Source of the DNA: Loxodes magnus
Lineage: Eukaryota; Ciliophora; Karyorelictea; Loxodida; Loxodidae
DNA: 64,000 nt
Assembly: GCA_946699065.1 (NCBI GenBank)
Contig: CAMPDV010000063.1
Coordinates: forward strand, 945,210-1,009,209
Direction of reading: 5' to 3'
Under the pieces are notes generated by a model. The model searched no databases. It was not told the DNA's origin and was given only the letters and a program-made list of their open reading frames with translations. This document shows positions 7,412-64,000 of the stretch, in pieces; the stretch's first letter is position 1; every line of letters starts with the position of its first letter. The translations under genes were made by a program, and so were the position numbers.

Positions 7412-8218
7412 ATGAATGTAGAGGCTATTGAATGTAGTAATATGGCTATAGTAAGTAGCTAATAGTTAGTATTACTAATCAGATAAGTCTATAGGTTTGC
7501 TACTTTTGATCAACAAAGGTCTAAGTTTAAGCTACGTATAATTAGAATACTTTCTAGTTCAAGTTAGGGTCAGAAGCAAGAACAGCAGGTAATGTTAGCA
7601 TACTCTAGCTAAGTGAAGCATACTCCTACTTTATTAGTTTAGATAATAAGCAAAAAGCAAATTAGTAAAGCAATTTGAAAGACTCCTGTGAATAGTAACA
7701 TAACGCTCAATAAACCTAAAGGCTTAAATTGCTCAATTAGATTAAATTAAATGTCTTTTACTAAAAATATCAATACAGTCCATAAGTAACTTAGGAGGAC
7801 TGACTAACTATCTGCCATGCTTTCGCTTAAGAGTGAGGATATTATATTAAACACTTCCTACTAGAGGAATCCTAAGACTGTTAAAATGATCAGTAAGATT
7901 GAATGACTTCGGAAGTAGAAAAAGAAGAAGAGAGTTAAGATGAAAAAGAACCAGGAAAGCTGAAAGCCTGAAATTGACTTGTCTTAATAGATATTCGAGA
8001 ATATGGATGAGGTTAAGAAACCAGTAAGGCTAAAGATTGATTTGAAGAACTTAAAGGAAGCAGTTTTTAATCTAAACTCGAAGCTTTAAAGAAGACTAGA
8101 AGAACGGATACAACAGAAGCAAGTAAAGCTACCTTAAATAAAGCAAATAAAGTAGACTACTCCAGTAGGATCAAAGACGAAGCTATTTGTTGCTTACAAT
8201 TCTTTTGTTCTTTAAAAA
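7412..8218 (+). CDS. Hypothetical basic protein, stop unresolved
   Basis: This frame is lysine-rich in its second half, with acidic/leucine stretches (PEIDLSQQIFENMDEVKK, LKIDLKNLKEAVFNLNSKL) that look coding. It runs in the same frame straight into the VPS10 start codon. No TGA separates them, although a TAA lies 6 nt before that ATG. Either a short intron near the end is missed (a TGA sits in the next frame), the two are unrelated and this is a chance open frame, or TAA ends it. A possible 32-nt GTAAGT..CAG intron lies near 7454. Confidence 0.35.
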
Positions 8219-10417
8219 ATGAAATTGCTTCTATTTGCTTTAATTTATACTTCATTAGCTTAGCTTTAGTTAATTGATTTTCTAGCTTTCGAAAGCAAGA
8301 TCGGAACTTGATGATGTAAAGAGTATGATGCCATGCTGATCAAAACTAATCAAGGCCGTTTGCTTGTATATCATCTGAATACTAAGGCTGAAAACTAAAT
8401 CGCAATTCAGGCTGAAAGTGTAATATAGACAGAAAAGGATAAAGCAGCGTTTATTGTGAAATCAAATGGAAGCTAATGACTAACAGGAGATTGTTTCCAC
8501 AACACTCTTTAAATCCAGGGAATTCCTAAAATAGAAAATTTCCAGTTCCATCCATACGAAAAAAGCTGAGTGTTAGTATCAAATGAAAATCAAGAATTAT
8601 ACTTAAGTGTGAATTTTGGAGCCACCTGGAAGTTGATTTTGAAGGATGCTGTTAGTTATAAATGAGGAGTTCTAAATCTGGCTAAAGAAGCAGTCAAGTT
8701 TCCTCAGTAAAGAGTTTACGCTATTTATAAGTAAAAGCACTAAAATGTGAACTACCTTAAAGCAGATAAGCAAATCAACATGTTCATATGTTCTGATAAC
8801 TTTTTTGAGAATTGAATGGAAATTTCAAAAGAGGTAGAGGATTTTCTCATTTAAGACTGGTATATAATTGCCTTCCAATACTATCTTAGCAAGGAAATTA
8901 TTCTACTAGTAGCTAACCATGTTCAGAGCTTCGCTATATTTAACAAAGCGAAGCTACCAAAGATAAGAGAAAGGGAGGATGTCACAGTCTTGTCAACGAG
9001 AAATAAAATAATGCTGCACATTAGCAAAGATAATGGAATGGGAGATGTTTACCAATCAGATTTTTCAGGATCTAGATTTACGGTCTCATTGGAGAATGTG
9101 ATTTGCAATATTACCCTGTGCTAATTTTAAAAGCTAGAAGGAATTTCTAATGCGTACATAGCTAATGTTAACAGTGACTATTAAAGAAGAGCTAATTTGA
9201 ACCTAAATTATGAACTTGAGAATAGCACTATTTCGTTTATCAGTCTGGATAATGGAATTAGCTGAGAATAATTATCAGAACATTTGCATCCAAATTTATA
9301 GGATAATTAAGATGTGATTAATTAAGATAATGCACCACTGGTATTGATAGGGAAGAAAAGAGGGATTTTAGAACAAGACTATGTAGAATATTACGTTATC
9401 AGTACTAATTTGGGAAGAGAATTCGAAAAGGTTAACTAGAATTTTAAAAATAGCAAGTCAGGTACTATACTTAATGTTATGGATGGAGATATTTTGATTA
9501 TGGGTTAAACTAAATCTAGCAATGTTTATTATTCATTTGACTTTGGTAATTCTTGAAAAAATCTTATACAGCTGAAGAAAGCAAGGCTTGAGAATTTTCA
9601 CTATATGAGATAAATGTTTTTGGTTGAATATACATATGAAACCAAAACTTATTTAAAATATGTTCAGATACAAAGTGTAGAGTAGCATAAACTTAAGAAA
9701 ATGGAAAAATGCAGACATCCATATGCTGATGCTAACTTAATAAATGACAAAGATTATGCTAATTTAAGGCTGAACTGTACTTTAGGTGTAACTACTACTT
9801 ACTTTACACGGAAAGCATAGTGTCTACCACTAGAAACTGTACTACCTTTAATTGAATTTTGTCATTGCACTAAAGAAGACTACGAATGTAATTTTAACTT
9901 CCATAAATCTGATAATAGTGAGTGTATTCCAAACAATTTGCTAGACATCAGCGATTAAGTAGATGGTAAAATTAAGAGGATTAATGATAAATGCAAAGAA
10001 TAAGAGACCTTCTATTTCTAACTTCTCTTGACTCTCTTTTTCATTTTCTTAATTCTCCTTTGTTGCTTCTTTTGACTAAATAGTTGGAGATGGCTCAAAT
10101 TCTAGGTTAGGTGCCTATTTGACGCTAGCCTTAGTCTAGCTCTTTTTATTTCTAATGAATAGGAATATGAAACTGTTCCTACTTGTGAAGAAGATAATGA
10201 AGATATAGACAGAAATTCTCCAACTTCTTAGAAGCGAGGGGACTAACTCTCATCAATAGATTGAGATGATACTATGGAGCTTGTATATGAAGATGAGATG
10301 TCAGGTTTGTATAATCATGTGCATAACTCATATCTTTATTTAGATTAGTCAGCTGCTGGCTTGTTGTAACTTCTTAGAGAAACTGATAAAAAATTCATAG
10401 AAGAATCCATTTATTGA
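8219..10417 (+). CDS. VPS10-domain (sortilin-type) sorting receptor
   Basis: 732 codons without introns, ATG 8219, TGA 10415. A signal peptide (MKLLLFALIYTSLAQ) leads into a ten-bladed VPS10 propeller with Asp-box strands (ELYLSVNFGATWKL, ISLDNGISW, YYSFDFGNSWKNL). A cysteine-rich segment follows (LNCTLG, FCHCTKEDYECNF), as in the 10CC module. One transmembrane helix (about residues 598-622) precedes a cytosolic tail of about 110 residues with acidic clusters (CEEDNEDID). Such receptors carry hydrolases from Golgi to endosome or lysosome, and in ciliates also to mucocysts. Early in the luminal domain GTWWC is encoded with two consecutive TGA codons, both necessarily tryptophan. The tail resembles adaptor- or retromer-binding tails only in general character. 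Confidence 0.92.
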
Positions 10418-11031
10418 CTTTTAATTAAGGCTATAGTTTGTTAATTTTGTAGTTATGAAGCTTTCTCTTTACAGCATCAGCTTATATTGACTTAATGTTG
10501 CGGCCTTATAAAGCATTTGTAAAATATGTTAATGATATATAGAACAAAGTACATTAGTTCAGTTTATATAGAAACATTTTACTTCTTGAATGATCTTATT
10601 TAAATATTTATTTTCATTACAGTGAATTAAAAATTGCTGTACTAACTTTATTTCTTATCTTAAAGTAATGCTTATATCATCATTATTAATATAAGAGACA
10701 TTTTATGCTCCAGCAATGTTTAAGTACCTTATCTTCTGTTTATCGTTTCGTATCTTATAGACTTAAACGTTTTATTATCTCAAAAAGGCTGCAATAATTT
10801 TAAAGCTACCAGGACTAATATTGACTAGCAAACTCTAGCAGCTCCATTTATATATTGATTTCTCTTTCATTGCAAGGTAACTAAGTAAAAGTACTTAAAT
10901 GATGGTAGCAATAGGAGCTGTTCTTGCTAAGTACTTATATCTAAGTGACAAATGTAATTAGCTACTAATTAAAACTGACTAAAGTAGCTTATTTATATCT
11001 AAGTGTTTATTAGATCCTATTATATACCAAA
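10418..11031. other. Spacer, nothing recognised
   Basis: AT-rich sequence between the VPS10 and ARF genes. No frame shows a family motif, and no RNA gene fold was evident. Confidence 0.5.
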
Positions 11032-11571
11032 ATGGGTTAACTTTTAGCTAGAATTTGGAATTGGTTTTTTGGTAAAAAGGAAAGAAGAATACTTATGATA
11101 GGTTTGGGAGGTTCTGGAAAGACTACGATTTTATATAAGTTGAAACTAGGAGAAGCAGTAAATACTATACCTACAATAGGATTCAATGTAGAGAATGTAG
11201 AATATAAAGGATTTAAATTAACAATGTGGGATGTTGGAGGATAGGATAAAATAAGATCACTTTGGGTTCACTATTTTGCAGGTACACATTTGGTTATTTT
11301 TGTAATAGATTCAAATGATAGGGAAAAGATAGAAGAAGCTAAGTAAGAAATATAAAAGTTGCTATCTGAGGAAGAGTTAAAAAACGTAGGCTTTCTGTTC
11401 CTGGCTAATAAGCAAGATTTACCTAATGCAATGACTGTTGCGGAAATAGTTGATAAATTGCAGCTTTTTGAAATAAAATCAAGACAATGGTTTCTCTAGG
11501 CAACTTGTGCAATAACAGGAGATGGTTTGTATGAAGGTTTAGATTGGCTGATAAAAAAAGTGAAAAACTGA
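11032..11571 (+). CDS. ARF-family small GTPase, copy 1
   Basis: 179 residues, ATG 11032, TGA 11569. All ARF motifs are intact: Gly2 for N-myristoylation and an amphipathic N-terminus ([13 protein letters not shown]), P-loop GLGGSGKTT, switch I ([10 protein letters not shown]), switch II WDVGGQDKIRSLW, NKQD, and CAITGDG. The family recruits coats and lipid enzymes to Golgi and endosome membranes in the GTP state. TAG encodes the catalytic switch II Gln (GGQ). It is the first and best preserved of five ARF-like copies in 5.5 kb. ARF versus ARL1 cannot be settled by eye. Confidence 0.94.
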
Positions 11572-12025
11572 GAAACAATATAATTTATAGCTGCTTTAAA
11601 ATATAAACCATATAGACTCTTTTGCATTTACAGTAAAAGTAATAACTACAATATATTATACTCATTAAGTTGGCTTAGTGGAAATACTAAGAGGAACAAT
11701 AATATACTTATCTTACAACGAGAGATAATTAGCTCTTATGATAAAGCTTTATATTCTAAAATGAAATATTGAGATAAGTTAGAACTTGATACTCTTAGTC
11801 CTTATACTTAGAAAGCATCTTTTACTGCTGATTCTTTGATTTCTTTTGTAGTTTTATCAAAACTTAAGGTATGAAGTTAACTTTTTAAACTAGATATCCA
11901 TACTTAATTTTAATAGCTTTGAGATATTCGATTAGTTAGTTGTAATAGTTCAAAAATGCTTCGCTTATAGTCTGCATGTTCACTTTATGTGGTTTTTATA
12001 TTATTTTCCTTTTTTAAGTTCTAAT
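11572..12025. other. Spacer
   Basis: No supported gene. It separates ARF copy 1 from PCMT copy 1, and is AT-rich with no motif seen. Confidence 0.5.
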
Positions 12026-12772
12026 ATGTCTACATACTCAAAACCACTTAGACTTGGAATTATTTTTTTCCTTCTATCCCTGTAAGCCCCTCATTCACTA
12101 TATTTCTAAGGTAGCAAATCTAATTAAGAGCTTGTATAAAATCTTAAGGAAGAGGGAGTTATTAAATCAGCTAAAGTAGAGCAAGTAATGCTATAAGTTG
12201 ATAGAAAGCACTTTGTCAAGGATAAAAGTCAAGCTTATTAGGATAATCCTTTATACATTGGATATGGAGCTACTATTAGTGCACCACATATGCATGCATA
12301 TGCGTTGGAGCTGCTGTCTGACTTTTTATAACCTAATTAAACAGCTTTAGATGTTGGATCAGGAAGTGGTTATTTAACTGTTTGCATGAGCTATATGGGA
12401 GCTGGGAAAGTATATGGAGTTGAGCATATTTAAGAGTTAGTTGATTTTTCTTTGAGGAATGTGGAAGATCACTATGGACATTTACTTCTAAAAGAGAGAA
12501 CAGAGATTGTTAAAGGAGATGGCAGATAAGGTCTTAAGAAAGGAGCACCATATAAAGCAATACATGTTGGTGCTGCAAGTGCAGAATATCCAGAACATTT
12601 AATTAACTAGTTAGCAAATGGAGGAAGGCTATTAATTCCTGAAGGAAGATAAGACTAAAAGATGGTTATTTATGACAAAGATGAGAATGGTAGAATAAGT
12701 AGGAAAGAGACACTTGGTGTGAGATATGTACCACTAACAGATGAAAAGACCCAAAAGCATGAAATTTGATGA
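12026..12772 (+). CDS. Protein-L-isoaspartate O-methyltransferase, copy 1
   Basis: 248 residues. The enzyme uses S-adenosylmethionine to methylate isoaspartyl residues in damaged proteins. A hydrophobic N-terminal segment (GIIFFLLSLQAPHS) suggests a signal peptide or anchor, so it may act in the secretory pathway. The substrate loop GYGATISAPHMHAYALE is canonical, AdoMet motif I is LDVGSGSGYLT, and GAPYKAIHVGAA and LANGGRLLIPEG follow. The end is conserved with human PCMT1-type proteins (VPLTDEKTQ). The last codons are ATT TGA TGA: the first TGA is Trp and the second is the stop, as in copy 2. Confidence 0.95.
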
Positions 12773-13398
12773 AGCATTAATAGTAAAATCTAACTTTTTA
12801 AGATAATTAGAGTCCATAAATAGCTAAGTTATAGCAATCTAAATGAAAAGAAATGCTACAATATACTTATTAATGCATCTAATGCAATGATACATAGAAA
12901 AATAACTACTCAGAAAGTAAAATATTTAGTTACATGCTTAATTGCTCGTATAACAACTAAAGCTATGATATTAATAAATCCTATTATAGTTATTATTCAA
13001 ATGGTTTACTTTTAAAGTAAGATACTTAGATATTGCTAGATTTTAAGATAATAGCAATCTATAATGTATATAAACCTATTAAGTAGAACTGTCCATATAT
13101 CACTATAAATGCTTATATTACTATCAATAAGATAGGAAATATTCAATATTCATATCGTTTTAAGGCTTATAGTTGAGCAAGGATTAAGCAGCAGAAGCAT
13201 AGCAGTTAGTACTATAAGATTAAGCTTGGAGTTAGTGAAAAATAAAATGTTGATATTATGAAATAAGCAGGTAAAGATTAGTTTTAGTCCTGTCTATATA
13301 TAGACTTGTAAGCTTATTAGATACAGCAATTTTAGTTAGGTTTTTAGCTAAAGCTTTTTAGTATTTTATCCTTTTAAATTTTGTTTTTTTTAATAAAA
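12773..13398. other. Spacer
   Basis: No supported gene between PCMT copy 1 and ARF copy 2. Confidence 0.5.
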
Positions 13399-13947
13399 AT
13401 GGGATAGATACTCTCACAGTTCTGGTCATGGCTAACAGGTTAAAGGAAAGGAAGAATATTATTATTAGGTTTAGGTGGGTCTGGTAAGACAACTATATTA
13501 TACAAGTTAAAGCTAAATGAATACGTAACTACTATACCTACTATAGGATTTAATGTAGAGGACTTAAAGATTAAGGGATGAAGATTAACATTATGAGATG
13601 TAGGAGGCTAAGATAAAATACGCGTACTATGGCGACATTATTTCTCAGGTAATAATGCGATAATATTCGTAGTGGATTCAAACGATAGAGAAAAGATCTA
13701 AGAAGCTAAATAAGAACTATGAAAGCTTCTAGAAGAGAATGAACTCTAGGACAATAGTTTTTTGATCCTTGCAAATAAGTAAGATTTACCCAATTAAATG
13801 AGCATCTAAGAAATGTGTGAACAACTATAGCTTCACTCAATTAAGAATAGACAATGGTATATTTAAGCCTGTTCAGGAATATCAGGAGAAGGTTTAATGG
13901 AGGGCTTAAATTGGCTGACTAAATAGTTGGGCAGCAAAACAAACTGA
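13399..13947 (+). CDS. ARF-family small GTPase, copy 2
   Basis: 182 residues to the first TGA after the fold (13945). Myristoylatable start [15 protein letters not shown]-loop GLGGSGKTT, switch [11 protein letters not shown], switch II WDVGGQDKIRVLW, NKQD and ACSGISGEG are all present. Two conserved Trp (GWRLTLW) use TGA. If the terminal TGA at 13945 were read as Trp, the next in-frame codons would add a hydrophobic helix (FTIFILMIIAIPFISVYYY). The normal ARF length argues that this TGA is the stop. Confidence 0.92.
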
Positions 13948-14485
13948 TTTACCATTTTTATATTAATGATAATAGCAATTCCTTTCATTTCAGTCTATTA
14001 CTATAATCAACTTTTTAATATAGTTCTGATGTAATAATTGTTAGTCCTCACTTAAATGTAACAAGTATAAAGAGCATATCATCAGTTGATATATTGAAAT
14101 GATAAAGCAAGGGAAAGGCAAAATTGATTAATAGTTAAATAGCGATATCTATGGTATTGACTATCTAAAATAGTAAAAGCTTCTTTATAACTAAGAGATA
14201 AATAAAATAGCTATTTTAAAGCGTTCCTAGAATAAAAGCTATTAAGGTATTTTAATCCTTATGATACATTCTTTAATAATATAGTAAATATCTATCTAGT
14301 CTACTTTTTAATATGAGTGCTAGTAAAAATATTATATCAGAGATATTAATTAAAAGTGCTAAAAGACTCAAATGAAATAATAGATAGTAGCAGAAGAAGG
14401 AAAAGCAAGATAATATTGATTTTTATTAATTATTCCTAGTATTAAAATAGACTTCTTGCTATATTGATAATATTAGCACTATAAT

Positions 14486-14850
14486 ATGAATAAGTTACTT
14501 GCAGTGTTTAGAACGTGATTAACAGGTAAAAGAGAAAGATGAATTTACTACTAAGATTAGATTATTCAAGAAAAGCTTCTTTATTTTATAGACTAGTAAT
14601 AGAATAAGCAATTAAATGTAATTCAAATAATAGGCTCAATATTGAAAATGTAAGTTAAGAGGAATGATAATTATAAATGCGAGATATTGAAGGAAGTTAA
14701 GAGTTATAATCACATTGAGATTACTATTACAATTTCATTTTTAAGTTCCTATACGAAGTTAAATATAGATATTTTGTCATTTTGAAGGTAAATTCTTTAG
14801 TTTTGATGCTAATATTCAGTTTCAGACTAAAATAATCTTAATATTTTCTA
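14486..14850 (+). pseudogene. Decayed ARF copy 3
   Basis: The start (MNKLLAVFRTWLTGKRER) matches the ARF N-terminus copies up to residue 18. The remainder can be followed only in pieces in shifting frames: a P-loop region without GK[ST], a scrap of IENV, and WQLQMRDIEGSQ where copies 1 and 2 have [10 protein letters not shown]. No GTP-binding motif survives intact. This is a fossil of tandem duplication. Confidence 0.75.
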
Positions 14851-15413
14851 AATCCTCTAAGATATATTATGTTAGCTTTAATTTGGTATCTATATAAGAC
14901 CTTGAACTAGAATATATTATTTATATTAAGTAGGATAAATACTTAAAGCTAAGCTTTTCTATAGCATACCTATCTACTACCATACTCTTTGCTTCTTCTT
15001 TTAATTATTCGATACTTGTCATAGTATTAATTGCACAAATGCCTAAATTTGGACGTATCTATATTAAATAAATATCTAACTATCCTATTCCATCTTTTAC
15101 TACCTAATCATCATATCATTATGTATCTACTGAAGATATAACTAGCATTCTTATATTTCTGTTAAGATGTTCTTAGTAAAGAAATATTAGATGACAATAA
15201 TGAAGCTTTATATGATAAGAGTCTGAATACAATACAGACTTTAAAATGCTTAAGGAATAAAAGCTTTTAATAGACTCCATTTCTTCCATCTAGATTAGCT
15301 ACCTTTGTAATAATCCCTCTAGCAAACTACATAAATACTATACTTTCTTATCATTATCACTTTAGTGTAAGTTAAATTTAGTTAGACTGATTAAATATAA
15401 AAAATGGGCTAAT

Positions 15414-15944
15414 TGTTCTCCAGATTTTGATAGTGATTAACAGGTAAAAGAGAAGCAAGGATATTATTAATAGGAATTGAGTCTTAAGGAAAGACTTAGT
15501 TTCTTTATAGACTAAAGTTAGGATAAGTAATAACTTGTCTTCCTACTATCGGATTTAATGTGGAAACTATAAGTCATAAAGGATGCTAATTGACTATGTG
15601 AGATGTTGGGGTTAAGAATAGATAAGATTACTGTGAAGACACTATTTCGAAAATACAAATGGATTAATTTTTGTAGTAGATTCAAGTGATAAAATTGAAG
15701 TAGATAAGAGTTATGAAAGCTACTTTAAGAACAATATCTTTAAAATATCTGTTTCCTCATCCTAGCAAATAAGCAAGATTTACCTAATGCAATGTCTATA
15801 CTTTAAATAACTGAGAGATTATAGCTTAATAAAATATAAAGCAGGCAATGGTACATTTAAGCAACGAGTGTTGTATAAGGAGAAGGTTTGAAAGAAGGTT
15901 TGGATTGGTTAACAACAGAATTAAAGAAAACTATGAACATTTGA
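15414..15944 (+). pseudogene. Frameshifted ARF copy 4
   Basis: The copy starts well (MGQLFSRFWQWLTGKREARILLIG), but the P-loop is GIESQGKTQ, losing the Ser/Thr after the Lys. After TMWDVG it needs at least two frame changes, near 15610-15645 and 15740-15765, to recover RHYFENTNGLIFVVDSSD and then [14 protein letters not shown]. It ends GEGLKEGLDWL..KKTMNI before TGA 15942. Switch II is destroyed (DVGVKNRQ in place of DVGGQDKI). Confidence 0.88.
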
Positions 15945-16003
15945 TTATTAAAACTAATAGTAGAGTATTAATTTTAGCTTTATGTATTATTAAATAACTA
16001 TAA

Positions 16004-16552
16004 ATACGTTAATTATTAGAAAGGTTCTGACCATGGCTAACTGCCAAAACTGAACAAAAAATTTTAATGACTGGTCTCAATAGCTTAGGAAAGTCTACTA
16101 TACTTTACAAATTAAAATTAGGCGAAGTGGTTACAACAATACCTACTATTGGATTTAATGTTGAAACAATTGAATATAAAGGATGAAAAATAACTATTTG
16201 GGATGTAGGAGGTTAGGATAAAATATTACCTCTCTGGAAATATTATTACAGCATGCTTAAATCATGTTTTGCTTTCGTAATCGATTCTAATAATAGAGAA
16301 AGAATAGACTAGAATAGATAATTAATTAAAAAGCTACTTTAAGAAATAGCTTTGAAGAATATTAATATTCTGTTTCTAGCAAATAAATAAGATTTGCCTA
16401 ATAGAATGTCAACAAATGAGCTAATAGAAAAGTTGCAATTGAATGCAATTAAAGACAGGAAGTAATACTTATAACCTTGCTGCGCCTTTACAGATGATGG
16501 CTTATATGAGAATTTAGATTGGATAGTTAATTAGGCAAGAAAAAAGTAGTGA
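16004..16552 (+). pseudogene. ARF copy 5 with lost start codon
   Basis: The GTPase body is a full open frame to TGA 16550: P-loop GLNSLGKST, switch [28 protein letters not shown] and CAFTDDG. At the position where the other copies have ATG GGT TAA (Met-Gly-Gln), this copy reads ATA CGT TAA, so both the start and the myristoylated glycine are gone. No in-frame upstream ATG was found; the first internal ATG (16055) would remove the amphipathic helix. It could be a very young pseudogene, or translated as a soluble GTPase from the internal ATG. Confidence 0.8.
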
Positions 16553-16991
16553 GATGTTATATAAAAACTATAAATAGTTAATCTATTTTCATTACTGTCA
16601 TTATTCATAAGATCATAATTATCAAGATTATAATAAAATCTTAGTCTTAAATTTATTCCCTAGCTAATAAATTTTTTATCAAAAATCCGCTTTCCTTTAT
16701 AAATTTTCTCAGTATATCTATAACAATATCATTAAGAAGCTAAAGTAGAATCACTTCATATTTAGACATAAAAAGCCAAATCTATATCTACCATTTCAGT
16801 TAATCATAAAATGCTAATCCATCAATTTTCGAAAGTTTAAATGTTCAAAATTTACATTCAGTTGACTATTAAGCTACAGAGTCAGAACACAGGAACTAAT
16901 TAGAATAGTAAAAGCTTAAGCTATAAATGACATGGTATTATAGTAAAAAATGTATATAAGAAAGTATATTTTATTATTTTAATTAATATAA

Positions 16992-17744
16992 ATGTCAATT
17001 TCCTCATAGACTGTACGCTTGAGCATTGTCTTCTACATTCTTTCTCTTTATATCTCGGAATCTTAGTCTATTTACTCTCGCTATGCTAGAACTAATCAAG
17101 AAATGGTTTAAATTCTGAAAGATAATGGAGTGATAGAGTCATAGAGAGTAGAATAGGCTATGTTGAAAGCAGATAGAAGGAATTTTATGAAGGATTTTGG
17201 CTCTTCCTATACACTTAGAAAAATGTATGTCAGTTATGGAAATTTCGTCTTGGCTCCTTAATAAGCTGCTTTTATTCTAGAAACATTAGCTAGTTATATC
17301 ACCTCTGATGCAACGGTTTTAGATGCAGGAACAGGTACTGGCTGGTTAACTACATGCTTTGCTTATATGGGAGCTGGGAAAGTTTATGGAGTTGAACATA
17401 TAACAAAGCTTGCTGATATAGCAAATCTAAATATTAGAGACTTTTATTTTGAATTATTCTAAGATAATAAAGTAGAAGTCAACCATGGAGACGAACATTA
17501 AGGCTGGCCCCTTGGAGCACCTTACAAAGCAATTTATTTAGACTACACAAATCCAGATTACCCAGAAGTTTTGCTTGACTAGCTGGCTAATGGTGGAAGA
17601 CTTATGTACCTTGAAAGTAAAGATTCTCCTAGGTTTATAATATATGACAAAGATGGGAAAGGAAATGTAAGTCGTAAGGAAGTTTTAAATGAAAAATACG
17701 ATAAACCAGAGGATAATAACTATAGGAGATAAGAAATTTGATGA
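16992..17744 (+). CDS. Diverged isoaspartate methyltransferase-like, copy 2
   Basis: 250 residues, ATG 16992. It shares with copy 1 a hydrophobic N-terminus (VFYILSLYISES), AdoMet motif LDAGTGTGWLT, the block YMGAGKVYGVEH, GAPYKAI and LANGGRL. The substrate-binding loop is SYGNFVLAPQQAAFILE instead of GYGATISAPHMHAYALE, so the Ser and the SAPHM core are lost. The C-terminal third is also altered (ESKDSPRFIIYDKDGKGN). It probably still binds AdoMet but may not methylate isoaspartate. It ends ATT TGA TGA exactly like copy 1. Confidence 0.87.
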
Positions 17745-18302
17745 AGCTAGAGAGATTATTAACTTTTTATTGATAAACAATAATACGTAATAATGCATAT
17801 TCTTATTTCAATATTACATCAAATATAGATTACTATACCACTCTATTAGCAAATTAGAGTATTAAGTTGATAAATCCAAATACACTTAGTTAAACTCTAA
17901 CTACTAAAAAAAGATAAAACTGAAAATAATTTGATATGAAGCATTCTTCTTCAGATATAATTCTTCTAAACTTGTAGATAAGAATACGCAACTAGTCATT
18001 CGTAAGTAAACAATTTGAATGATACATTGATTATAACTTTTAATTTATAACTTATGCTCATAAACTCTTATCTTATACTATATTATTTATACTAAATCTA
18101 TACTAAATCTATTTAAAAAAAGCTATTATAGACTAATATACCCAAATTTATTTCCTATTAACTTAATTATTTCATTCACTCTTAAGTTATAAATATAATT
18201 TTAGATATCTTTAAAGTGATGTCACTTTAGAAGAAAAATAAGGAAAGATCATTAAATTTATAATTTAATCACTTTGACTATATAAGTTTAGTTAATTAGA
18301 AG
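17745..18302. other. Spacer
   Basis: AT-rich sequence with no supported gene between the ARF/PCMT cluster and the convergent minus-strand gene. Confidence 0.5.
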
Positions 18303-53119: not shown

Positions 53120-54157
53120 ATGAAAAAGTTAAGATAAGTTGTAGCCTTGTTTAGACATGGAGCTAGAATTCCTCTCTTAAAACTTCCTTTTGACAACACT
53201 TAATGGCCTCGTAAGTGAGCTAATTTGACCCCAAAAGGATGGTTACAGCTTTATTTAAAAGGATTGAAATTTTAAGAAAAAGGAAAGCTTCTACACCTCA
53301 AATAGACATTTGATAAAAATGAAGTGATGGTAAGGAGTTCTAATTATAAAAGAACATAGGAGAGTGCTGATGCTTTCCTTAGAGGTTTATATAACATCTC
53401 GCTAGATGATATTCAGGATTGAAACTATTCTAACAAATAAGAAGTTGTTAGTGAAGGAATATTAGAACAATCAAATATAAAATTCACAGTTCCTTCTATT
53501 ATTTTTCCTTTAATAGTTTTTAACAAAGCAGAAGATGTTATAATAAAACCTTGTCGATCTATAAAAGAAGTGAAAGCTCTTAGTTAAGATATAATGAAAT
53601 CCGAATATATTAATAACATACTTAATTAAAATAAATGGTTCTTAGATGAAATTGGATGAAGGTTTAGAATGAAAATTAAAAATCTGAAAAAAGTAGTAGA
53701 TTTTTATGATACCTTAATATGTACTAAATTTGAAACGAATCAAACATTTATTTCAAACGAAGAAATGAGGATTATGGAAACTTTGACATGCCTTTTCTAG
53801 CTAAATTAGCATTATTCAACTAAGCACTTGATTAATCTGAATACAAAAGGATTTTTTAATGCTTTAATATCTCATATGGATTGCATTGTAAGTAATGAAA
53901 ATCCCTAAAAACTTGCTCTTTATTTTGGTCACGACGACTTATTAATAGCCATCTTGGAATAAATGAACATATGAGATTTTAGACATCCACCTTTTGCTTC
54001 ATGCTTAGCCTTTTATTTATGAGAAATACCAGAAAAAAATCAATATAGTGTTGAAGTGGAATACAATGGAGAAAGTAAAAGATTTCCAGATTTTAAAGAG
54101 AATTGTGAATATTAGGAATTTAAAGAATACTTGAGTAATAGGCTAAGAGAAAAATCT
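53120..54157 (+). CDS. Histidine acid phosphatase family enzyme
   Basis: About 346 residues. The catalytic RHGAR is at residues 12-16 (VVALFRHGARIP) and the proton-donor HD motif is in LYFGHDDLLIAIL; the SSNYKRTQESADAFLRGL segment is also typical. The enzyme hydrolyses phosphomonoesters through a phosphohistidine. No signal peptide precedes the RHG motif, so it is probably cytosolic or anchored differently. The domain ends near LSNRLREKS, where the next codon is TAA (54158); the next in-frame TGA is at 54383, so the stop is ambiguous. TGA serves as Trp at PRKWAN and QDWNYS. Confidence 0.88.
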
Positions 54158-55108: not shown

Positions 55109-56065
55109 ATGACTTCTAAGAAATAATAGAATTCTACGCTAAAGCCTTATGATAAGCAAGACTTTGTTAACGATTTAATTGTTACAATTGGATAATCAGA
55201 AGCTAGTAAAAAACTTATGTCCTTAGATAAATAACTTAATCTCTTGCTAACTATTATCAAATTGATAAATAAATAGAACCTTAAGCAAGAAATGAATGAA
55301 TAGATTATTTCTTAAAAGATGGGAAAGGTATAAAGGTAAAATCTAAGTGAATTTAAGATAATAATTTTGAACAGAGGATTAGATAATTAGAGCATATCAA
55401 GCTCAATTAAATATCATATCTAAAATCAATAAGAGAAGAGAATATGAACTAAAGATTATCCTATTAGAAAAGAAAAATTAGATGTTGATATTGTTATAAG
55501 TATGGAAGCAAGGTTACTTAGTTCTTTCGATAATAAAAGAAACAATCTTATGTAAAGAAAAGGAATAAAACTAATAAAGATCTATTGCTTGCCAAGCAAA
55601 AATTTAAAAAGAAAAAAATGTTAACAATTCTTAGAAGCTCCAAATATCAAAGACATATTGAGAAAACAACAAAGATGAAAATATGAATTTGACTTACAAG
55701 CATAAGCAAGAGAAGAAAATAAAAAAATAATAAAAAATTAAAATCCAGAAAATAAAGAGGAATACAATCTTGAGGCCTTCTTATTTGAGCAAGACTCTAT
55801 AAATTCAATCTCGAGGTAAACAAACAAAGATGACGCCACAAATATATATTATAATATTAATAAGTTTTCCAAATAAGATTGGTATTTAGCTAATAATTTT
55901 GCCAGCCATTTTTAGTATTTGGAGGATAGGGTCCAAGAAGATGAGAAACTTTTAATTTTATATTTTATTTTGGAAAATTCTTTTTTTAACGTAAAAAAGT
56001 GTTATGAAATATAGTAAAGGTGGTTATAAAAGAAGTTTTATGATAGGTTATATAAAAACGGGTGA
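55109..56065 (+). CDS. Hypothetical protein whose 3' end enters the tandem array
   Basis: 318 codons. A helical, charged protein begins MTSKKQQNSTLKPYDKQDF and includes DYPIRKEKLDVDIVISMEAR and LEAPNIKDILRKQQRWKYEF. From 55906 its codons are read from the first, partial unit of the array, in a frame different from the array genes, until TGA 56063. The last 52 residues (after NNFASHFQYL) are therefore probably not its original end. Not recognised. Confidence 0.6.
56049..56057 (+). promoter_or_regulatory. TATA-like box of array unit 1
   Basis: TATATAAAA lies about 46 nt before the ATG inside the 158-bp spacer and recurs at the same offset in every unit. Candidate core promoter, inferred from sequence only. 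Confidence 0.4.
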
Positions 56066-56102
56066 TTTGATATAAAAAGAAGGTAGTGAAGAGATAATAA
56101 AA

Positions 56103-56489
56103 ATGAAATCGACAGTAGTGCTTTTATTATTAGGTTGTTTAATAGCTGAAAGTACCTTTTTAAGAGAGAAGTTAAGATCGAGACAAGTGTAAGATTAAGG
56201 ATAATATTATATTCCTTAAGAAATGGGAAATATTTCATAAAGTTTTCCTACGTTTGATATGTAAGCATTTATGCCGTAAGGATAAAACATGACATAATTA
56301 TTAGAAGTAGGATAAGATTCTGACGAAGTGGATTCTGACGAAGTGGATTCTGACGAAGTGGATTTTGACGAAGTGGATTTTGATGGAAGAGGAGTAATGC
56401 CATTTTTGCCACCATAACAGTTCATGCCAGCATAGGAGTTTTAAATGCCACCATTTTTAGTATTTGGAGGATAGGGTCCAAGAAGATGA
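56103..56489 (+). CDS. Array gene 1: secreted acidic pentad-repeat protein
   Basis: 128 residues, ATG 56103, TGA 56487. A signal peptide (MKSTVVLLLLGCLIAES) is followed by a basic patch (FLREKLRSRQ) offering dibasic-type cleavage sites and a Gln/Tyr/Met-rich region (QDQGQYYIPQEMGNISQSF). Then come acidic pentads (DSDEV three times, DFDEV once, ending DFDG) and a Pro/Met/Gln-rich tail (GVMPFLPPQQFMPAQEFQ) ending GGQGPRR. No Cys lies after the leader. Gln is encoded by TAA/TAG throughout and no internal TGA occurs. The product should be secreted or stored, and the acidic block could bind calcium. A role in extrusomes, surface coat or mating signals is speculation. Confidence 0.9.
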
Positions 56490-56647
56490 GAAACTTTTAA
56501 TTTTATATTTTATTTTGGAAAATTCTTTTTTTAACGTAAAAAAGTGTTATGAAATATAGTAAAGGTGGTTATAAAAGAAGTTTTATGATAGGTTATATAA
56601 AAACGGGTGATTTGATATAAAAAGAAGGTAGTGAAGAGATAATAAAA

Positions 56648-57034
56648 ATGAAATCGACAGTAGTGCTTTTATTATTAGGTTGTTTAATAGCTGAAAGTAC
56701 CTTTTTAAGAGAGAAGTTAAGATCGAGACAAGTGTAAGATTAAGGATAATATTATATTCCTTAAGAAATGGGAAATATTTCATAAAGTTTTCCTACGTTT
56801 GATATGTAAGCATTTATGCCGTAAGGATAAAACATGACATAATTATTAGAAGTAGGATAAGATTCTGACGAAGTGGATTCTGACGAAGTGGATTCTGACG
56901 AAGTGGATTTTGACGAAGTGGATTTTGATGGAAGAGGAGTAATGCCATTTTTGCCACCATAACAGTTCATGCCAGCATAGGAGTTTTAAATGCCACCATT
57001 TTTAGTATTTGGAGGATAGGGTCCAAGAAGATGA
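56648..57034 (+). CDS. Array gene 2
   Basis: 128 residues, same pentad number as gene 1 (545-bp unit). Confidence 0.9.
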
Positions 57035-57192
57035 GAAACTTTTAATTTTATATTTTATTTTGGAAAATTCTTTTTTTAACGTAAAAAAGTGTTATGAAAT
57101 ATAGTAAAGGTGGTTATAAAAGAAGTTTTATGATAGGTTATATAAAAACGGGTGATTTGATATAAAAAGAAGGTAGTGAAGAGATAATAAAA

Positions 57193-57579
57193 ATGAAATC
57201 GACAGTAGTGCTTTTATTATTAGGTTGTTTAATAGCTGAAAGTACCTTTTTAAGAGAGAAGTTAAGATCGAGACAAGTGTAAGATTAAGGATAATATTAT
57301 ATTCCTTAAGAAATGGGAAATATTTCATAAAGTTTTCCTACGTTTGATATGTAAGCATTTATGCCGTAAGGATAAAACATGACATAATTATTAGAAGTAG
57401 GATAAGATTCTGACGAAGTGGATTCTGACGAAGTGGATTCTGACGAAGTGGATTTTGACGAAGTGGATTTTGATGGAAGAGGAGTAATGCCATTTTTGCC
57501 ACCATAACAGTTCATGCCAGCATAGGAGTTTTAAATGCCACCATTTTTAGTATTTGGAGGATAGGGTCCAAGAAGATGA
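57193..57579 (+). CDS. Array gene 3
   Basis: 128 residues, same as gene 1. Confidence 0.9.
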
Positions 57580-57737
57580 GAAACTTTTAATTTTATATTT
57601 TATTTTGGAAAATTCTTTTTTTAACGTAAAAAAGTGTTATGAAATATAGTAAAGGTGGTTATAAAAGAAGTTTTATGATAGGTTATATAAAAACGGGTGA
57701 TTTGATATAAAAAGAAGGTAGTGAAGAGATAATAAAA

Positions 57738-58109
57738 ATGAAATCGACAGTAGTGCTTTTATTATTAGGTTGTTTAATAGCTGAAAGTACCTTTTTAAGA
57801 GAGAAGTTAAGATCGAGACAAGTGTAAGATTAAGGATAATATTATATTCCTTAAGAAATGGGAAATATTTCATAAAGTTTTCCTACGTTTGATATGTAAG
57901 CATTTATGCCGTAAGGATAAAACATGACATAATTATTAGAAGTAGGATAAGATTCTGACGAAGTGGATTCTGACGAAGTGGATTTTGACGAAGTGGATTT
58001 TGATGGAAGAGGAGTAATGCCATTTTTGCCACCATAACAGTTCATGCCAGCATAGGAGTTTTAAATGCCACCATTTTTAGTATTTGGAGGATAGGGTCCA
58101 AGAAGATGA
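57738..58109 (+). CDS. Array gene 4 (one pentad fewer)
   Basis: 123 residues. Only two DSDEV units precede DFDEV, so the unit is 530 bp. Confidence 0.9.
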
Positions 58110-58267
58110 GAAACTTTTAATTTTATATTTTATTTTGGAAAATTCTTTTTTTAACGTAAAAAAGTGTTATGAAATATAGTAAAGGTGGTTATAAAAGAAG
58201 TTTTATGATAGGTTATATAAAAACGGGTGATTTGATATAAAAAGAAGGTAGTGAAGAGATAATAAAA

Positions 58268-58654
58268 ATGAAATCGACAGTAGTGCTTTTATTATTAGGT
58301 TGTTTAATAGCTGAAAGTACCTTTTTAAGAGAGAAGTTAAGATCGAGACAAGTGTAAGATTAAGGATAATATTATATTCCTTAAGAAATGGGAAATATTT
58401 CATAAAGTTTTCCTACGTTTGATATGTAAGCATTTATGCCGTAAGGATAAAACATGACATAATTATTAGAAGTAGGATAAGATTCTGACGAAGTGGATTC
58501 TGACGAAGTGGATTCTGACGAAGTGGATTTTGACGAAGTGGATTTTGATGGAAGAGGAGTAATGCCATTTTTGCCACCATAACAGTTCATGCCAGCATAG
58601 GAGTTTTAAATGCCACCATTTTTAGTATTTGGAGGATAGGGTCCAAGAAGATGA
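58268..58654 (+). CDS. Array gene 5
   Basis: 128 residues, same as gene 1. Confidence 0.9.
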
Positions 58655-58812
58655 GAAACTTTTAATTTTATATTTTATTTTGGAAAATTCTTTTTTTAAC
58701 GTAAAAAAGTGTTATGAAATATAGTAAAGGTGGTTATAAAAGAAGTTTTATGATAGGTTATATAAAAACGGGTGATTTGATATAAAAAGAAGGTAGTGAA
58801 GAGATAATAAAA

Positions 58813-59200
58813 ATGAAATCGACAGTAGTGCTTTTATTATTAGGTTGTTTAATAGCTGAAAGTACCTTTTTAAGAGAGAAGTTAAGATCGAGACAAGTGT
58901 AAGATTAAGGATAATATTATATTCCTTAAGAAATGGGAAATATTTCATAAAGTTTTCCTACGTTTGATATGTAAGCATTTATGCCGTAAGGATAAAACAT
59001 GACATAATTATTAGAAGTAGGATAAGATTCTGACGAAGTGGATTCTGACGAAGTGGATTTTGACGAAGTGGATTTTTGACGAAGTGGATTTTGATGGAAG
59101 AGGAGTAATGCCATTTTTGCCACCATAACAGTTCATGCCAGCATAGGAGTTTTAAATGCCACCATTTTTAGTATTTGGAGGATAGGGTCCAAGAAGATGA
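58813..59200 (+). pseudogene. Array gene 6, frameshifted
   Basis: A single extra T in the run at 59073-59077 (GATTTTTGAC instead of GATTTTGAC) shifts the frame inside the pentad block, so the Pro/Met tail and normal stop are lost. A homopolymer sequencing error is possible. Confidence 0.8.
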
Positions 59201-59358
59201 GAAACTTTTAATTTTATATTTTATTTTGGAAAATTCTTTTTTTAACGTAAAAAAGTGTTATGAAATATAGTAAAGGTGGTTATAAAAGAAGTTTTATGAT
59301 AGGTTATATAAAAACGGGTGATTTGATATAAAAAGAAGGTAGTGAAGAGATAATAAAA

Positions 59359-59730
59359 ATGAAATCGACAGTAGTGCTTTTATTATTAGGTTGTTTAATA
59401 GCTGAAAGTACCTTTTTAAGAGAGAAGTTAAGATCGAGACAAGTGTAAGATTAAGGATAATATTATATTCCTTAAGAAATGGGAAATATTTCATAAAGTT
59501 TTCCTACGTTTGATATGTAAGCATTTATGCCGTAAGGATAAAACATGACATAATTATTAGAAGTAGGATAAGATTCTGACGAAGTGGATTCTGACGAAGT
59601 GGATTTTGACGAAGTGGATTTTGATGGAAGAGGAGTAATGCCATTTTTGCCACCATAACAGTTCATGCCAGCATAGGAGTTTTAAATGCCACCATTTTTA
59701 GTATTTGGAGGATAGGGTCCAAGAAGATGA
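59359..59730 (+). CDS. Array gene 7 (one pentad fewer)
   Basis: 123 residues, pentad pattern as gene 4. Confidence 0.9.
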
Positions 59731-59888
59731 GAAACTTTTAATTTTATATTTTATTTTGGAAAATTCTTTTTTTAACGTAAAAAAGTGTTATGAAATATAG
59801 TAAAGGTGGTTATAAAAGAAGTTTTATGATAGGTTATATAAAAACGGGTGATTTGATATAAAAAGAAGGTAGTGAAGAGATAATAAAA

Positions 59889-60275
59889 ATGAAATCGACA
59901 GTAGTGCTTTTATTATTAGGTTGTTTAATAGCTGAAAGTACCTTTTTAAGAGAGAAGTTAAGATCGAGACAAGTGTAAGATTAAGGATAATATTATATTC
60001 CTTAAGAAATGGGAAATATTTCATAAAGTTTTCCTACGTTTGATATGTAAGCATTTATGCCGTAAGGATAAAACATGACATAATTATTAGAAGTAGGATA
60101 AGATTCTGACGAAGTGGATTCTGACGAAGTGGATTCTGACGAAGTGGATTTTGACGAAGTGGATTTTGATGGAAGAGGAGTAATGCCATTTTTGCCACCA
60201 TAACAGTTCATGCCAGCATAGGAGTTTTAAATGCCACCATTTTTAGTATTTGGAGGATAGGGTCCAAGAAGATGA
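59889..60275 (+). CDS. Array gene 8
   Basis: 128 residues, same as gene 1. Confidence 0.9.
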
Positions 60276-60433
60276 GAAACTTTTAATTTTATATTTTATT
60301 TTGGAAAATTCTTTTTTTAACGTAAAAAAGTGTTATGAAATATAGTAAAGGTGGTTATAAAAGAAGTTTTATGATAGGTTATATAAAAACGGGTGATTTG
60401 ATATAAAAAGAAGGTAGTGAAGAGATAATAAAA

Positions 60434-60805
60434 ATGAAATCGACAGTAGTGCTTTTATTATTAGGTTGTTTAATAGCTGAAAGTACCTTTTTAAGAGAGA
60501 AGTTAAGATCGAGACAAGTGTAAGATTAAGGATAATATTATATTCCTTAAGAAATGGGAAATATTTCATAAAGTTTTCCTACGTTTGATATGTAAGCATT
60601 TATGCCGTAAGGATAAAACATGACATAATTATTAGAAGTAGGATAAGATTCTGACGAAGTGGATTCTGACGAAGTGGATTTTGACGAAGTGGATTTTGAT
60701 GGAAGAGGAGTAATGCCATTTTTGCCACCATAACAGTTCATGCCAGCATAGGAGTTTTAAATGCCACCATTTTTAGTATTTGGAGGATAGGGTCCAAGAA
60801 GATGA
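60434..60805 (+). CDS. Array gene 9 (one pentad fewer)
   Basis: 123 residues, pattern as gene 4. Confidence 0.9.
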
Positions 60806-60963
60806 GAAACTTTTAATTTTATATTTTATTTTGGAAAATTCTTTTTTTAACGTAAAAAAGTGTTATGAAATATAGTAAAGGTGGTTATAAAAGAAGTTTT
60901 ATGATAGGTTATATAAAAACGGGTGATTTGATATAAAAAGAAGGTAGTGAAGAGATAATAAAA

Positions 60964-61350
60964 ATGAAATCGACAGTAGTGCTTTTATTATTAGGTTGTT
61001 TAATAGCTGAAAGTACCTTTTTAAGAGAGAAGTTAAGATCGAGACAAGTGTAAGATTAAGGATAATATTATATTCCTTAAGAAATGGGAAATATTTCATA
61101 AAGTTTTCCTACGTTTGATATGTAAGCATTTATGCCGTAAGGATAAAACATGACATAATTATTAGAAGTAGGATAAGATTCTGACGAAGTGGATTCTGAC
61201 GAAGTGGATTTTGACGAAGTGGATTTTGACGAAGTGGATTTTGATGGAAGAGGAGTAATGCCATTTTTGCCACCATAACAGTTCATGCCAGCATAGGAGT
61301 TTTAAATGCCACCATTTTTAGTATTTGGAGGATAGGGTCCAAGAAGATGA
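60964..61350 (+). CDS. Array gene 10 (variant pentad order)
   Basis: 128 residues. The pentads are DSDEV, DSDEV, DFDEV, DFDEV, so the expansion occurred in the DFDEV rather than the DSDEV unit. Confidence 0.9.
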
Positions 61351-61508
61351 GAAACTTTTAATTTTATATTTTATTTTGGAAAATTCTTTTTTTAACGTAA
61401 AAAAGTGTTATGAAATATAGTAAAGGTGGTTATAAAAGAAGTTTTATGATAGGTTATATAAAAACGGGTGATTTGATATAAAAAGAAGGTAGTGAAGAGA
61501 TAATAAAA

Positions 61509-61880
61509 ATGAAATCGACAGTAGTGCTTTTATTATTAGGTTGTTTAATAGCTGAAAGTACCTTTTTAAGAGAGAAGTTAAGATCGAGACAAGTGTAAGA
61601 TTAAGGATAATATTATATTCCTTAAGAAATGGGAAATATTTCATAAAGTTTTCCTACGTTTGATATGTAAGCATTTATGCCGTAAGGATAAAACATGACA
61701 TAATTATTAGAAGTAGGATAAGATTCTGACGAAGTGGATTCTGACGAAGTGGATTTTGACGAAGTGGATTTTGATGGAAGAGGAGTAATGCCATTTTTGC
61801 CACCATAACAGTTCATGCCAGCATAGGAGTTTTAAATGCCACCATTTTTAGTATTTGGAGGATAGGGTCCAAGAAGATGA
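61509..61880 (+). CDS. Array gene 11 (one pentad fewer)
   Basis: 123 residues, pattern as gene 4. Confidence 0.9.
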
Positions 61881-62038
61881 GAAACTTTTAATTTTATATT
61901 TTATTTTGGAAAATTCTTTTTTTAACGTAAAAAAGTGTTATGAAATATAGTAAAGGTGGTTATAAAAGAAGTTTTATGATAGGTTATATAAAAACGGGTG
62001 ATTTGATATAAAAAGAAGGTAGTGAAGAGATAATAAAA

Positions 62039-62425
62039 ATGAAATCGACAGTAGTGCTTTTATTATTAGGTTGTTTAATAGCTGAAAGTACCTTTTTAAG
62101 AGAGAAGTTAAGATCGAGACAAGTGTAAGATTAAGGATAATATTATATTCCTTAAGAAATGGGAAATATTTCATAAAGTTTTCCTACGTTTGATATGTAA
62201 GCATTTATGCCGTAAGGATAAAACATGACATAATTATTAGAAGTAGGATAAGATTCTGACGAAGTGGATTCTGACGAAGTGGATTCTGACGAAGTGGATT
62301 TTGACGAAGTGGATTTTGATGGAAGAGGAGTAATGCCATTTTTGCCACCATAACAGTTCATGCCAGCATAGGAGTTTTAAATGCCACCATTTTTAGTATT
62401 TGGAGGATAGGGTCCAAGAAGATGA
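62039..62425 (+). CDS. Array gene 12
   Basis: 128 residues, same as gene 1. Confidence 0.9.
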
Positions 62426-62583
62426 GAAACTTTTAATTTTATATTTTATTTTGGAAAATTCTTTTTTTAACGTAAAAAAGTGTTATGAAATATAGTAAAG
62501 GTGGTTATAAAAGAAGTTTTATGATAGGTTATATAAAAACGGGTGATTTGATATAAAAAGAAGGTAGTGAAGAGATAATAAAA

Positions 62584-62975
62584 ATGAAATCGACAGTAGT
62601 GCTTTTATTATTAGGTTGTTTAATAGCTGAAAGTACCTTTTTAAGAGAGAAGTTAAGATCGAGACAAGTGTAAGATTAAGGATAATATTATATTCCTTAA
62701 GAAATGGGAAATATTTCATAAAGTTTTCCTACGTTTGATATGTAAGCATTTATGCCGTAAGGATAAAACATGACATAATTATTAGAAGTAGGATAAGATT
62801 CTGACGAAGTGGATTCTGACGAAGTGGAGTGGATTCTGACGAAGTGGATTTTGACGAAGTGGATTTTGATGGAAGAGGAGTAATGCCATTTTTGCCACCA
62901 TAACAGTTCATGCCAGCATAGGAGTTTTAAATGCCACCATTTTTAGTATTTGGAGGATAGGGTCCAAGAAGATGA
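62584..62975 (+). pseudogene. Array gene 13, frameshifted
   Basis: A 5-nt insertion (GAGTG at about 62827-62831) between pentads makes a 550-bp unit and breaks the frame. It looks like slippage on GAAGTG/GAGTG rather than a homopolymer error. Confidence 0.82.
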
Positions 62976-63133
62976 GAAACTTTTAATTTTATATTTTATT
63001 TTGGAAAATTCTTTTTTTAACGTAAAAAAGTGTTATGAAATATAGTAAAGGTGGTTATAAAAGAAGTTTTATGATAGGTTATATAAAAACGGGTGATTTG
63101 ATATAAAAAGAAGGTAGTGAAGAGATAATAAAA

Positions 63134-63505
63134 ATGAAATCGACAGTAGTGCTTTTATTATTAGGTTGTTTAATAGCTGAAAGTACCTTTTTAAGAGAGA
63201 AGTTAAGATCGAGACAAGTGTAAGATTAAGGATAATATTATATTCCTTAAGAAATGGGAAATATTTCATAAAGTTTTCCTACGTTTGATATGTAAGCATT
63301 TATGCCGTAAGGATAAAACATGACATAATTATTAGAAGTAGGATAAGATTCTGACGAAGTGGATTCTGACGAAGTGGATTTTGACGAAGTGGATTTTGAT
63401 GGAAGAGGAGTAATGCCATTTTTGCCACCATAACAGTTCATGCCAGCATAGGAGTTTTAAATGCCACCATTTTTAGTATTTGGAGGATAGGGTCCAAGAA
63501 GATGA
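63134..63505 (+). CDS. Array gene 14 (one pentad fewer)
   Basis: 123 residues, pattern as gene 4. Confidence 0.9.
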
Positions 63506-63663
63506 GAAACTTTTAATTTTATATTTTATTTTGGAAAATTCTTTTTTTAACGTAAAAAAGTGTTATGAAATATAGTAAAGGTGGTTATAAAAGAAGTTTT
63601 ATGATAGGTTATATAAAAACGGGTGATTTGATATAAAAAGAAGGTAGTGAAGAGATAATAAAA

Positions 63664-64000
63664 ATGAAATCGACAGTAGTGCTTTTATTATTAGGTTGTT
63701 TAATAGCTGAAAGTACCTTTTTAAGAGAGAAGTTAAGATCGAGACAAGTGTAAGATTAAGGATAATATTATATTCCTTAAGAAATGGGAAATATTTCATA
63801 AAGTTTTCCTACGTTTGATATGTAAGCATTTATGCCGTAAGGATAAAACATGACATAATTATTAGAAGTAGGATAAGATTCTGACGAAGTGGATTCTGAC
63901 GAAGTGGATTTTGACGAAGTGGATTTTGATGGAAGAGGAGTAATGCCATTTTTGCCACCATAACAGTTCATGCCAGCATAGGAGTTTTAAATGCCACCAT
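63664..64000 (+). CDS. Array gene 15, cut by window end
   Basis: The first 112 codons are intact with the short pentad pattern of gene 4; the last few codons lie beyond the window. Confidence 0.88.

Follow-up and report, generated by a model that had tools for sequence, protein, structure and literature searches.

Two tandem arrays of near-identical genes, very likely for a small secreted acidic protein, in the karyorelict ciliate Loxodes magnus

One contig of the Loxodes magnus assembly ends in a long run of near-identical units, and this raises the question of whether the units are genes and, if so, what so many copies could serve. We analyzed a window of 64,000 nucleotides, C63:945210-1009209 (contig CAMPDV010000063.1 of assembly GCA_946699065.1; 705,730,643 bases in 7,843 contigs), and give coordinates as positions in this window. 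An earlier note, made from the letters alone, had placed a head-to-tail array of a secreted acidic protein gene from 55906 onward, and the layout agrees: fifteen ATG codons stand in head-to-tail register from 56103 to 63664, spaced 530-550 bp apart, and Tandem Repeats Finder (TRF; periods up to 2000) reported a single array at 55900-64000 with a period of 545, 15.0 copies and 98% matches. By its start positions and the TRF result, this array A (55906..64000, + strand) begins with a partial unit, continues through 14 full periods and breaks off within a 15th unit at the last base of the window, which is also the end of the contig (1,009,209). Because the contig ends inside the array, fifteen units are a lower bound and the true length lies beyond the contig. 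An exact 32-base search of the assembly found no contig carrying the distal side.

The gene family represented by array A has at least two tandem arrays. Uniqueness of array A in the genome, as suggested by the exact 32-base start of the unit (15 occurrences in the whole assembly, all in array A), was rejected because a protein search of the whole assembly with the array A product revealed a second array on contig C447. The search returned 38 matches on two contigs, 17 of them pieces of array A and 21 on C447. The second array, array B, is described here for the first time and extends the family to two arrays. It occupies C447:261113-274552 and comprises 19 complete units, eleven 663 bp and eight 687 bp long, flanked on both sides by a partial unit; its last unit runs into the end of the contig at 274,582, and both arrays are thus contig-terminal. 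All 19 complete frames are intact and specify products of 166 or 174 residues, which match the array A product at 104 of 126 aligned positions. The two arrays have in common the signal peptide, an LREKLRSRQ site, the arms rich in Gln, Pro, Met and Phe and part of the upstream region, and differ in both the sequence and the length of the acidic middle. Arrays A and B were also considered as alleles of one locus and rejected as such, because their flanks share only chance pieces of 16-23 bases (E 0.39) when 213 bases of the C447 flank, partly an inverted relic, are compared with 55,905 bases of the window. That relic lies at the left border of array B (C447:261016-261202; positions 117-303 of the stretch L040), directly before the border unit, and is an inverted remnant of 104 bases, 75% identical to the gene start (E = 8e-15).

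The conserved genes of the window read TAA and TAG as Gln and carry TGA inside, at positions where Trp is expected, as well as at their ends, as a stop. A ciliate code in which TGA is the only stop and also stands at Trp sites is thus supported, and this fits a karyorelict. The genome paper, which presents a macronuclear assembly of 706 Mb, gives the same code for L. magnus, with TAA and TAG as Gln and TGA as Trp or stop (PMC11441545). Read in this code, each array unit is very likely a protein gene, judging from its sequence. The same ATG, signal peptide, LREKLRSRQ site, both arms and the stop are kept in two diverged arrays, and the frame runs from ATG to TGA in both despite a length difference of 38 codons between the products. 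Within the arrays, units differ by 15 bp (array A) and by 24 bp (array B), through different acidic repeats in the same block, and the changes are of whole codons in 31 of the 33 complete units, the exceptions being two frameshifted units of array A. The conserved ends are identical between the arrays at 288 of 321 nucleotides and the spacer at 124 of 156; the spacer thus diverges more than the ends, and it has one-base gaps. G+C content also separates coding sequence from spacer (34.1% and 20.9% in array A, 33.3% and 19.8% in array B), and the published values for the species are 33.5% for coding sequence and 18.6% for 3' untranslated regions (PMC11441545). A crude signal-peptide profile fits the array gene; among the 370 open ATGs found elsewhere in the window, it fits only one. 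When the start was compared with four other gene starts, the context AATAAAA-ATG recurred at one Arf-like gene and ATAAAA-ATG at a radial spoke gene. Further, a plain codon score favors the frame, at 0.196 bits per codon, with z = 3.7 against base shuffles once the acidic pentads are left out.

Several results weigh against a coding reading and bear on the rival that the unit is a non-coding satellite with a chance reading frame. With a single stop codon, long open frames arise easily, and TGA-free frames are indeed common on both strands of the window. Synonymous codon choice gives the frame no support (-4.2 bits, with other frames reaching up to +5.4), and without the pentads one antisense frame comes near in codon score (0.146 vs 0.128). 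On the conserved ends, the ratio of nonsynonymous to synonymous change between the arrays (dN/dS) comes to 0.65, which, with few changes, is indistinguishable from 1 (Fisher p = 0.26); over all aligned codons its nominal value is 0.47. A chance frame would nevertheless have had to keep its start, stop, signal peptide and both ends through two arrays, beside a spacer that diverges more and carries one-base gaps, and to change in length by whole codons almost throughout; we consider it very improbable. Conserved ends, in-frame length changes and the presence of two arrays argue instead, and with good confidence on our part, for a real family of secreted proteins kept uniform by exchange.

The units of array A show this uniformity, all on the + strand. 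Similarity to the unit begins at the left border (55906..55944) with the final 39 bp of the family's coding sequence, ending in TGA. A TATA-like box, TTATATAAAA, lies ahead of gene 1 (56048..56057) within a block conserved in array B. Gene 1 (56103..56489) is intact, with TAA and TAG as Gln and TGA as stop, encodes 128 residues and has an array B paralog with the same ends; its predicted signal peptide, MKSTVVLLLLGCLIA, covers 56103..56147 and is conserved in array B, and its acidic minisatellite of four 15-bp pentad units lies at 56316..56375. The 158-bp spacer that follows (56490..56647; 20.9% G+C) would hold the 3' untranslated region, the promoter and the 5' untranslated region of the next gene. 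Products of 128 residues are also encoded by units 2 (56648..57034), 3 (57193..57579), 5 (58268..58654), 8 (59889..60275), 10 (60964..61350; pentads SSFF) and 12 (62039..62425), and products of 123 residues by units 4 (57738..58109), 7 (59359..59730), 9 (60434..60805), 11 (61509..61880) and 14 (63134..63505). The earlier description of every unit as a complete gene is thus correct for 12 of the 15 (seven of 128 and five of 123 residues) and fails for three. Unit 6 (58813..59079) has an extra T in a T run of the minisatellite and reads 88 residues to its first TGA, a possible homopolymer read error; unit 13 (62584..63096) is shifted by five extra bases (+GAGTG) in the minisatellite; and unit 15 (63664..64000) is open up to the contig end. 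Outside the minisatellite (45-65 bp, three or four 15-bp repeats), which is the only variable part, we counted no substitution in 7,279 compared bases. The reported heterozygosity of L. magnus is 0.6% (PMC11441545), and some 22 substitutions would be expected if the units differed to that extent. The near-identity noted earlier is therefore even stronger than claimed.

The units of array B are almost as uniform. Only two sites vary among the 19 complete units, a T/C difference (Val/Ala) in six units and a G/T difference in one, and the cut 20th unit, which lies outside this count, has no mismatch to its matching length type. Either state of the T/C site is found with either unit length, so that all four combinations are present (8, 5, 3 and 3 units), which indicates exchange between units. 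The partial unit at the border is a mosaic, array A-like at 78 of 80 bases and then identical to array B over 309 bases. A substitution-free array A and the mixing of variants in array B bear out the earlier suggestion of recent expansion or strong homogenization. Identity of this degree could also arise if the assembler had multiplied copies or made them identical. Both arrays lie at contig ends, unit 6 differs by a homopolymer T, and reads below a mapping quality of 20 were excluded from polishing (PMC11441545, Methods), so that the arrays are probably poorly polished and the frameshifts of units 6 and 13 may be either real or read errors. The assembly used HiFi reads, however, and a collapse could hardly yield arrays of 8 kb and 13 kb in which several unit types follow each other irregularly; it would rather hide copies. 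We therefore regard an assembly artifact as very unlikely.

The product is made up of a signal peptide, a short basic segment, an arm rich in Gln, Pro, Met and Phe, an acidic block and a second, similar arm. The features read earlier from the letters were all recovered. The signal peptide is N-terminal and conserved in array B, the basic processing site is the LREKLRSRQ stretch conserved between the arrays (with cleavage itself predicted), and the acidic pentads and the Pro/Met/Gln-rich tail are present. The basic segment may be cut before Gln28 (LREKLRSR|Q). Charges of arm, middle and arm are -4/-14/+2 in array A and -3/-28/+2 in array B. Between more constant arms, the middle thus varies freely in sequence and has twice the charge in array B, which suggests selection for charge and flexibility and not for sequence. 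A single-sequence AlphaFold model placed helices only at residues 2-29 (the signal peptide and what follows) and 53-56, with low confidence beyond residue 20, and the product is probably disordered outside the signal peptide. In agreement with the earlier failure to recognize a family, the array A product had no match at E <= 10 in Pfam, among PDB sequences or in a set of 5.8 billion proteins, and the array B product had none in the same large set. We assume that this set was mostly predicted with other codes; relatives in ciliates with recoded stops would probably be missed. No paper naming the family or the array came up in the literature searched, which covered the field in part. Most likely, the arrays encode a lineage-specific family of secreted proteins; homogenized gene arrays are a known kind, and what is new, relative to the libraries searched, is the protein.

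Conservation of the basic site and of the C-terminal arm would also be expected if the product were the precursor of a secreted bioactive peptide, used as a signal or in defense, in which an acidic pro-region kept a C-terminal peptide rich in Pro, Met and Phe inert until cuts at RSR and GRG released it. The 32-residue peptide after GR is slightly basic (pI 9.6). Such a precursor would not, however, need the N-terminal arm, which is conserved too, and an arm so rich in Pro would hardly form a helix. No dibasic pair precedes the C-terminal arm and no Cys lies outside the signal peptide, where the only one is residue 12 (array B also has a single Cys, in the same place). A peptide precursor is, in our estimate, rather improbable. 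Known small secreted ciliate proteins include the Euplotes pheromones, but these are disulfide-rich (PMC9229436), unlike a product whose sole Cys is in the signal peptide.

The acidic and probably disordered character of the product, with three S-x-E sites in both the 128- and the 166-residue forms, suggests other roles for a polyanion. Vertebrate secretory calcium-binding phosphoproteins that are acidic and rich in Pro and Gln are likewise secreted polyanions with S-x-E sites beside disordered arms rich in Pro and Gln; the resemblance is compositional only and we claim no homology. Loxodes itself carries BaSO4 statoliths in its Mueller vesicles, 3-60 per cell (PMC10954788), and the product could form the organic matrix of these barite bodies, binding Ba2+ and templating BaSO4, perhaps once phosphorylated at S-x-E. 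This idea is without any direct link to the arrays, and the statolith volume seems small for such a dosage; it is highly improbable.

As the overall best explanation, although a tentative one, we propose that the family is a lineage-specific cargo of secretory granules or mucus and that the arrays supply its dosage. Each unit would be a short intron-less gene, probably with its own promoter. The product would enter the secretory pathway and probably shed a short propeptide at LREKLRSR|Q, leaving a flexible protein of three blocks in which two near-neutral arms rich in Gln, Pro, Met and Phe flank a polyanionic middle. Our guess, which we rate as somewhat less likely than not, is that it fills secretory granules (extrusomes) or mucus as a bulk cargo. 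The acidic block would then be packed with Ca2+ or other cations and swell upon release, with the arms keeping the network together. Extrusomes are on record for the genus, as a reference title in PMC12811490 names the pigmentocysts of L. striatus. A close comparison is with the granule lattice (Grl) and trichocyst matrix proteins known from Tetrahymena and Paramecium, which are secreted granule cargo, as is proposed here. Grl proteins are acidic and made as proproteins (PMC6189453, PMC12752500). Grl1p has an isoelectric point of 4.28, and both array products compute to 4.05, which is apparently the floor of the program since unlike fragments score the same. Grl proteins are cut as proproteins, and the array products share a conserved basic site at which cleavage is predicted. 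The Grl proteins are described, however, as having predicted coiled coils and calcium binding, in contrast to the acidic repeats of a probably disordered three-block product. It weighs against the cargo assignment that the single-sequence AlphaFold model, with no dedicated coiled-coil predictor run, contained no coiled coil, and that the searches made, which did not include a direct comparison, brought up no similarity in sequence to known granule proteins.

Whether the arrays were selected for dosage is a guess on which we are evenly balanced. The histone and antifreeze gene arrays are tandem arrays of dosage genes, head-to-tail and homogenized. The arrays described here differ in encoding a protein family without known relatives and in that array A varies in nothing but an in-frame minisatellite. 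Like a homogenized array, array A has units more alike than alleles are (no substitution in those 7,279 bases), and array B has signs of exchange in its four variant combinations and mosaic border. Within L. magnus, the genes for ribosomal RNA (rDNA) also form head-to-tail chromosomal arrays of near-identical, homogenized units, and the main text of the genome paper reports that no rRNA amplification was found (PMC11441545). The karyorelict macronucleus has been described as almost diploid (PMC6935857). In a near-diploid macronucleus without amplification, high output would have to be written into the germline, as it is for the rDNA, and unequal exchange and conversion would keep the units alike.

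The copy number could instead be unselected, with a secreted family that is real and arrays that are by-products of slippage and unequal exchange in a genome that expands repeats. Tandem repeats of several sorts arise readily in this genome. We sampled 30 other assembly places at hand-picked, non-random positions; 20 of these stretches were 10 kb long, including one from the contig that carries the window, and the other 10 were 800 bases long. In 10 of the 30, a tandem repeat covered most of the stretch, with a period of 123 bp in four and other periods in six. In addition, 231 Mb of the 706 Mb assembly are reported as low-complexity tandem repeat (PMC11441545). These figures weigh against selection for dosage: copy number alone does not prove it, the frequency of WD40-like and other repeats weakens an argument from pure dosage, and the heavy demand for the product that the earlier note had read from the copy number stays predicted. 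The two frameshifted units of array A also suit a by-product. On the other side, one small family has two separate arrays, no complete frame of array B is broken, and a whole gene with its spacer would not fit into the basic periods of the ten sampled repeats, about 80-123 bp. On balance, we find a by-product of this kind unlikely, though it deserves to be taken seriously.

The sampled repeats of 123 bp, in four of the 30 places (L021, L024 and L026, 10 kb each, and L030, 800 bases, on C400, C600, C800 and C1400), encode 41-residue units in one frame that we identified by eye as WD40-like. Each of the three 10-kb stretches keeps one frame throughout, with 15-37 in-frame TGA codons readable as Trp, and 76, 79 and 80 of 80 repeats are in register (L021, L024 and L026, respectively). 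The ratio of nonsynonymous to synonymous polymorphism (pN/pS) against the consensus is 5.75, 4.0 and 2.13 in the same order, from changes that are mostly amino-acid changes, and is descriptive only because the repeats are non-independent copies. The amino-acid changes cluster at a few columns; 14, 16, 32 and 34, and also 17, are among the eight most variable in all three. In the non-self recognition genes of Podospora, WD40 codons 7, 9, 25 and 27 are under positive selection (PMC2873952), and columns 14, 16, 32 and 34 have the same spacing as these. The other six (L028, L031, L032, L035, L036 and L037) are AT-rich and repeat with a basic period of about 80-102 bp; several carry a TCACTTTTCT core on one strand and may form one satellite superfamily.

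Elsewhere in the window, a match to the histidine acid phosphatase family (PF00328, E 3.1e-14) lies upstream of array A at 53126-54067 on the + strand and was the only Pfam match on either strand between 46 and 56 kb. A cluster of diverged duplicates occupies 11000-17750, also on the + strand. It includes Arf-like GTPases, of which seven stretches were found in three frames of 8000-17902 (those that could be placed lie at 11.0-16.6 kb), and two matches to PCMT-like methyltransferases whose starts resemble signal peptides by eye. A phage, bacterial or rRNA origin of the window was rejected, as eukaryotic genes in the ciliate code occur in several of its parts and an Rfam scan gave no match; a tRNA scan yielded nothing useful.

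The published TRF settings turn the whole of array A into a single low-complexity repeat region (55900-64000). In the genome project, predicted genes that overlapped regions of this sort were identified (PMC11441545, Methods), and the array genes are presumably absent from the released annotation. A word search of the main text of that paper found neither 'WD40' nor any word starting with 'secret'. Masking of tandem repeats may thus remove real genes, with array A as an example. We also put forward, as a doubtful generalization, that dosage in this genome is encoded in the germline, highly used genes lying in long homogenized coding arrays that, together with the giant coding-like WD40 arrays, make up a sizeable share of what is classed as low-complexity tandem repeat. 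If this were true, array A and its twin would be the visible part of a protein-coding satellite DNA overlooked by gene annotation. In many ciliates the output of a gene is increased by multiplying DNA in the somatic nucleus, and karyorelicts, described as nearly diploid, would need another route to products made in bulk. The presence of two arrays for a single secreted family points to such a route and suggests that the cell may make much of the product.

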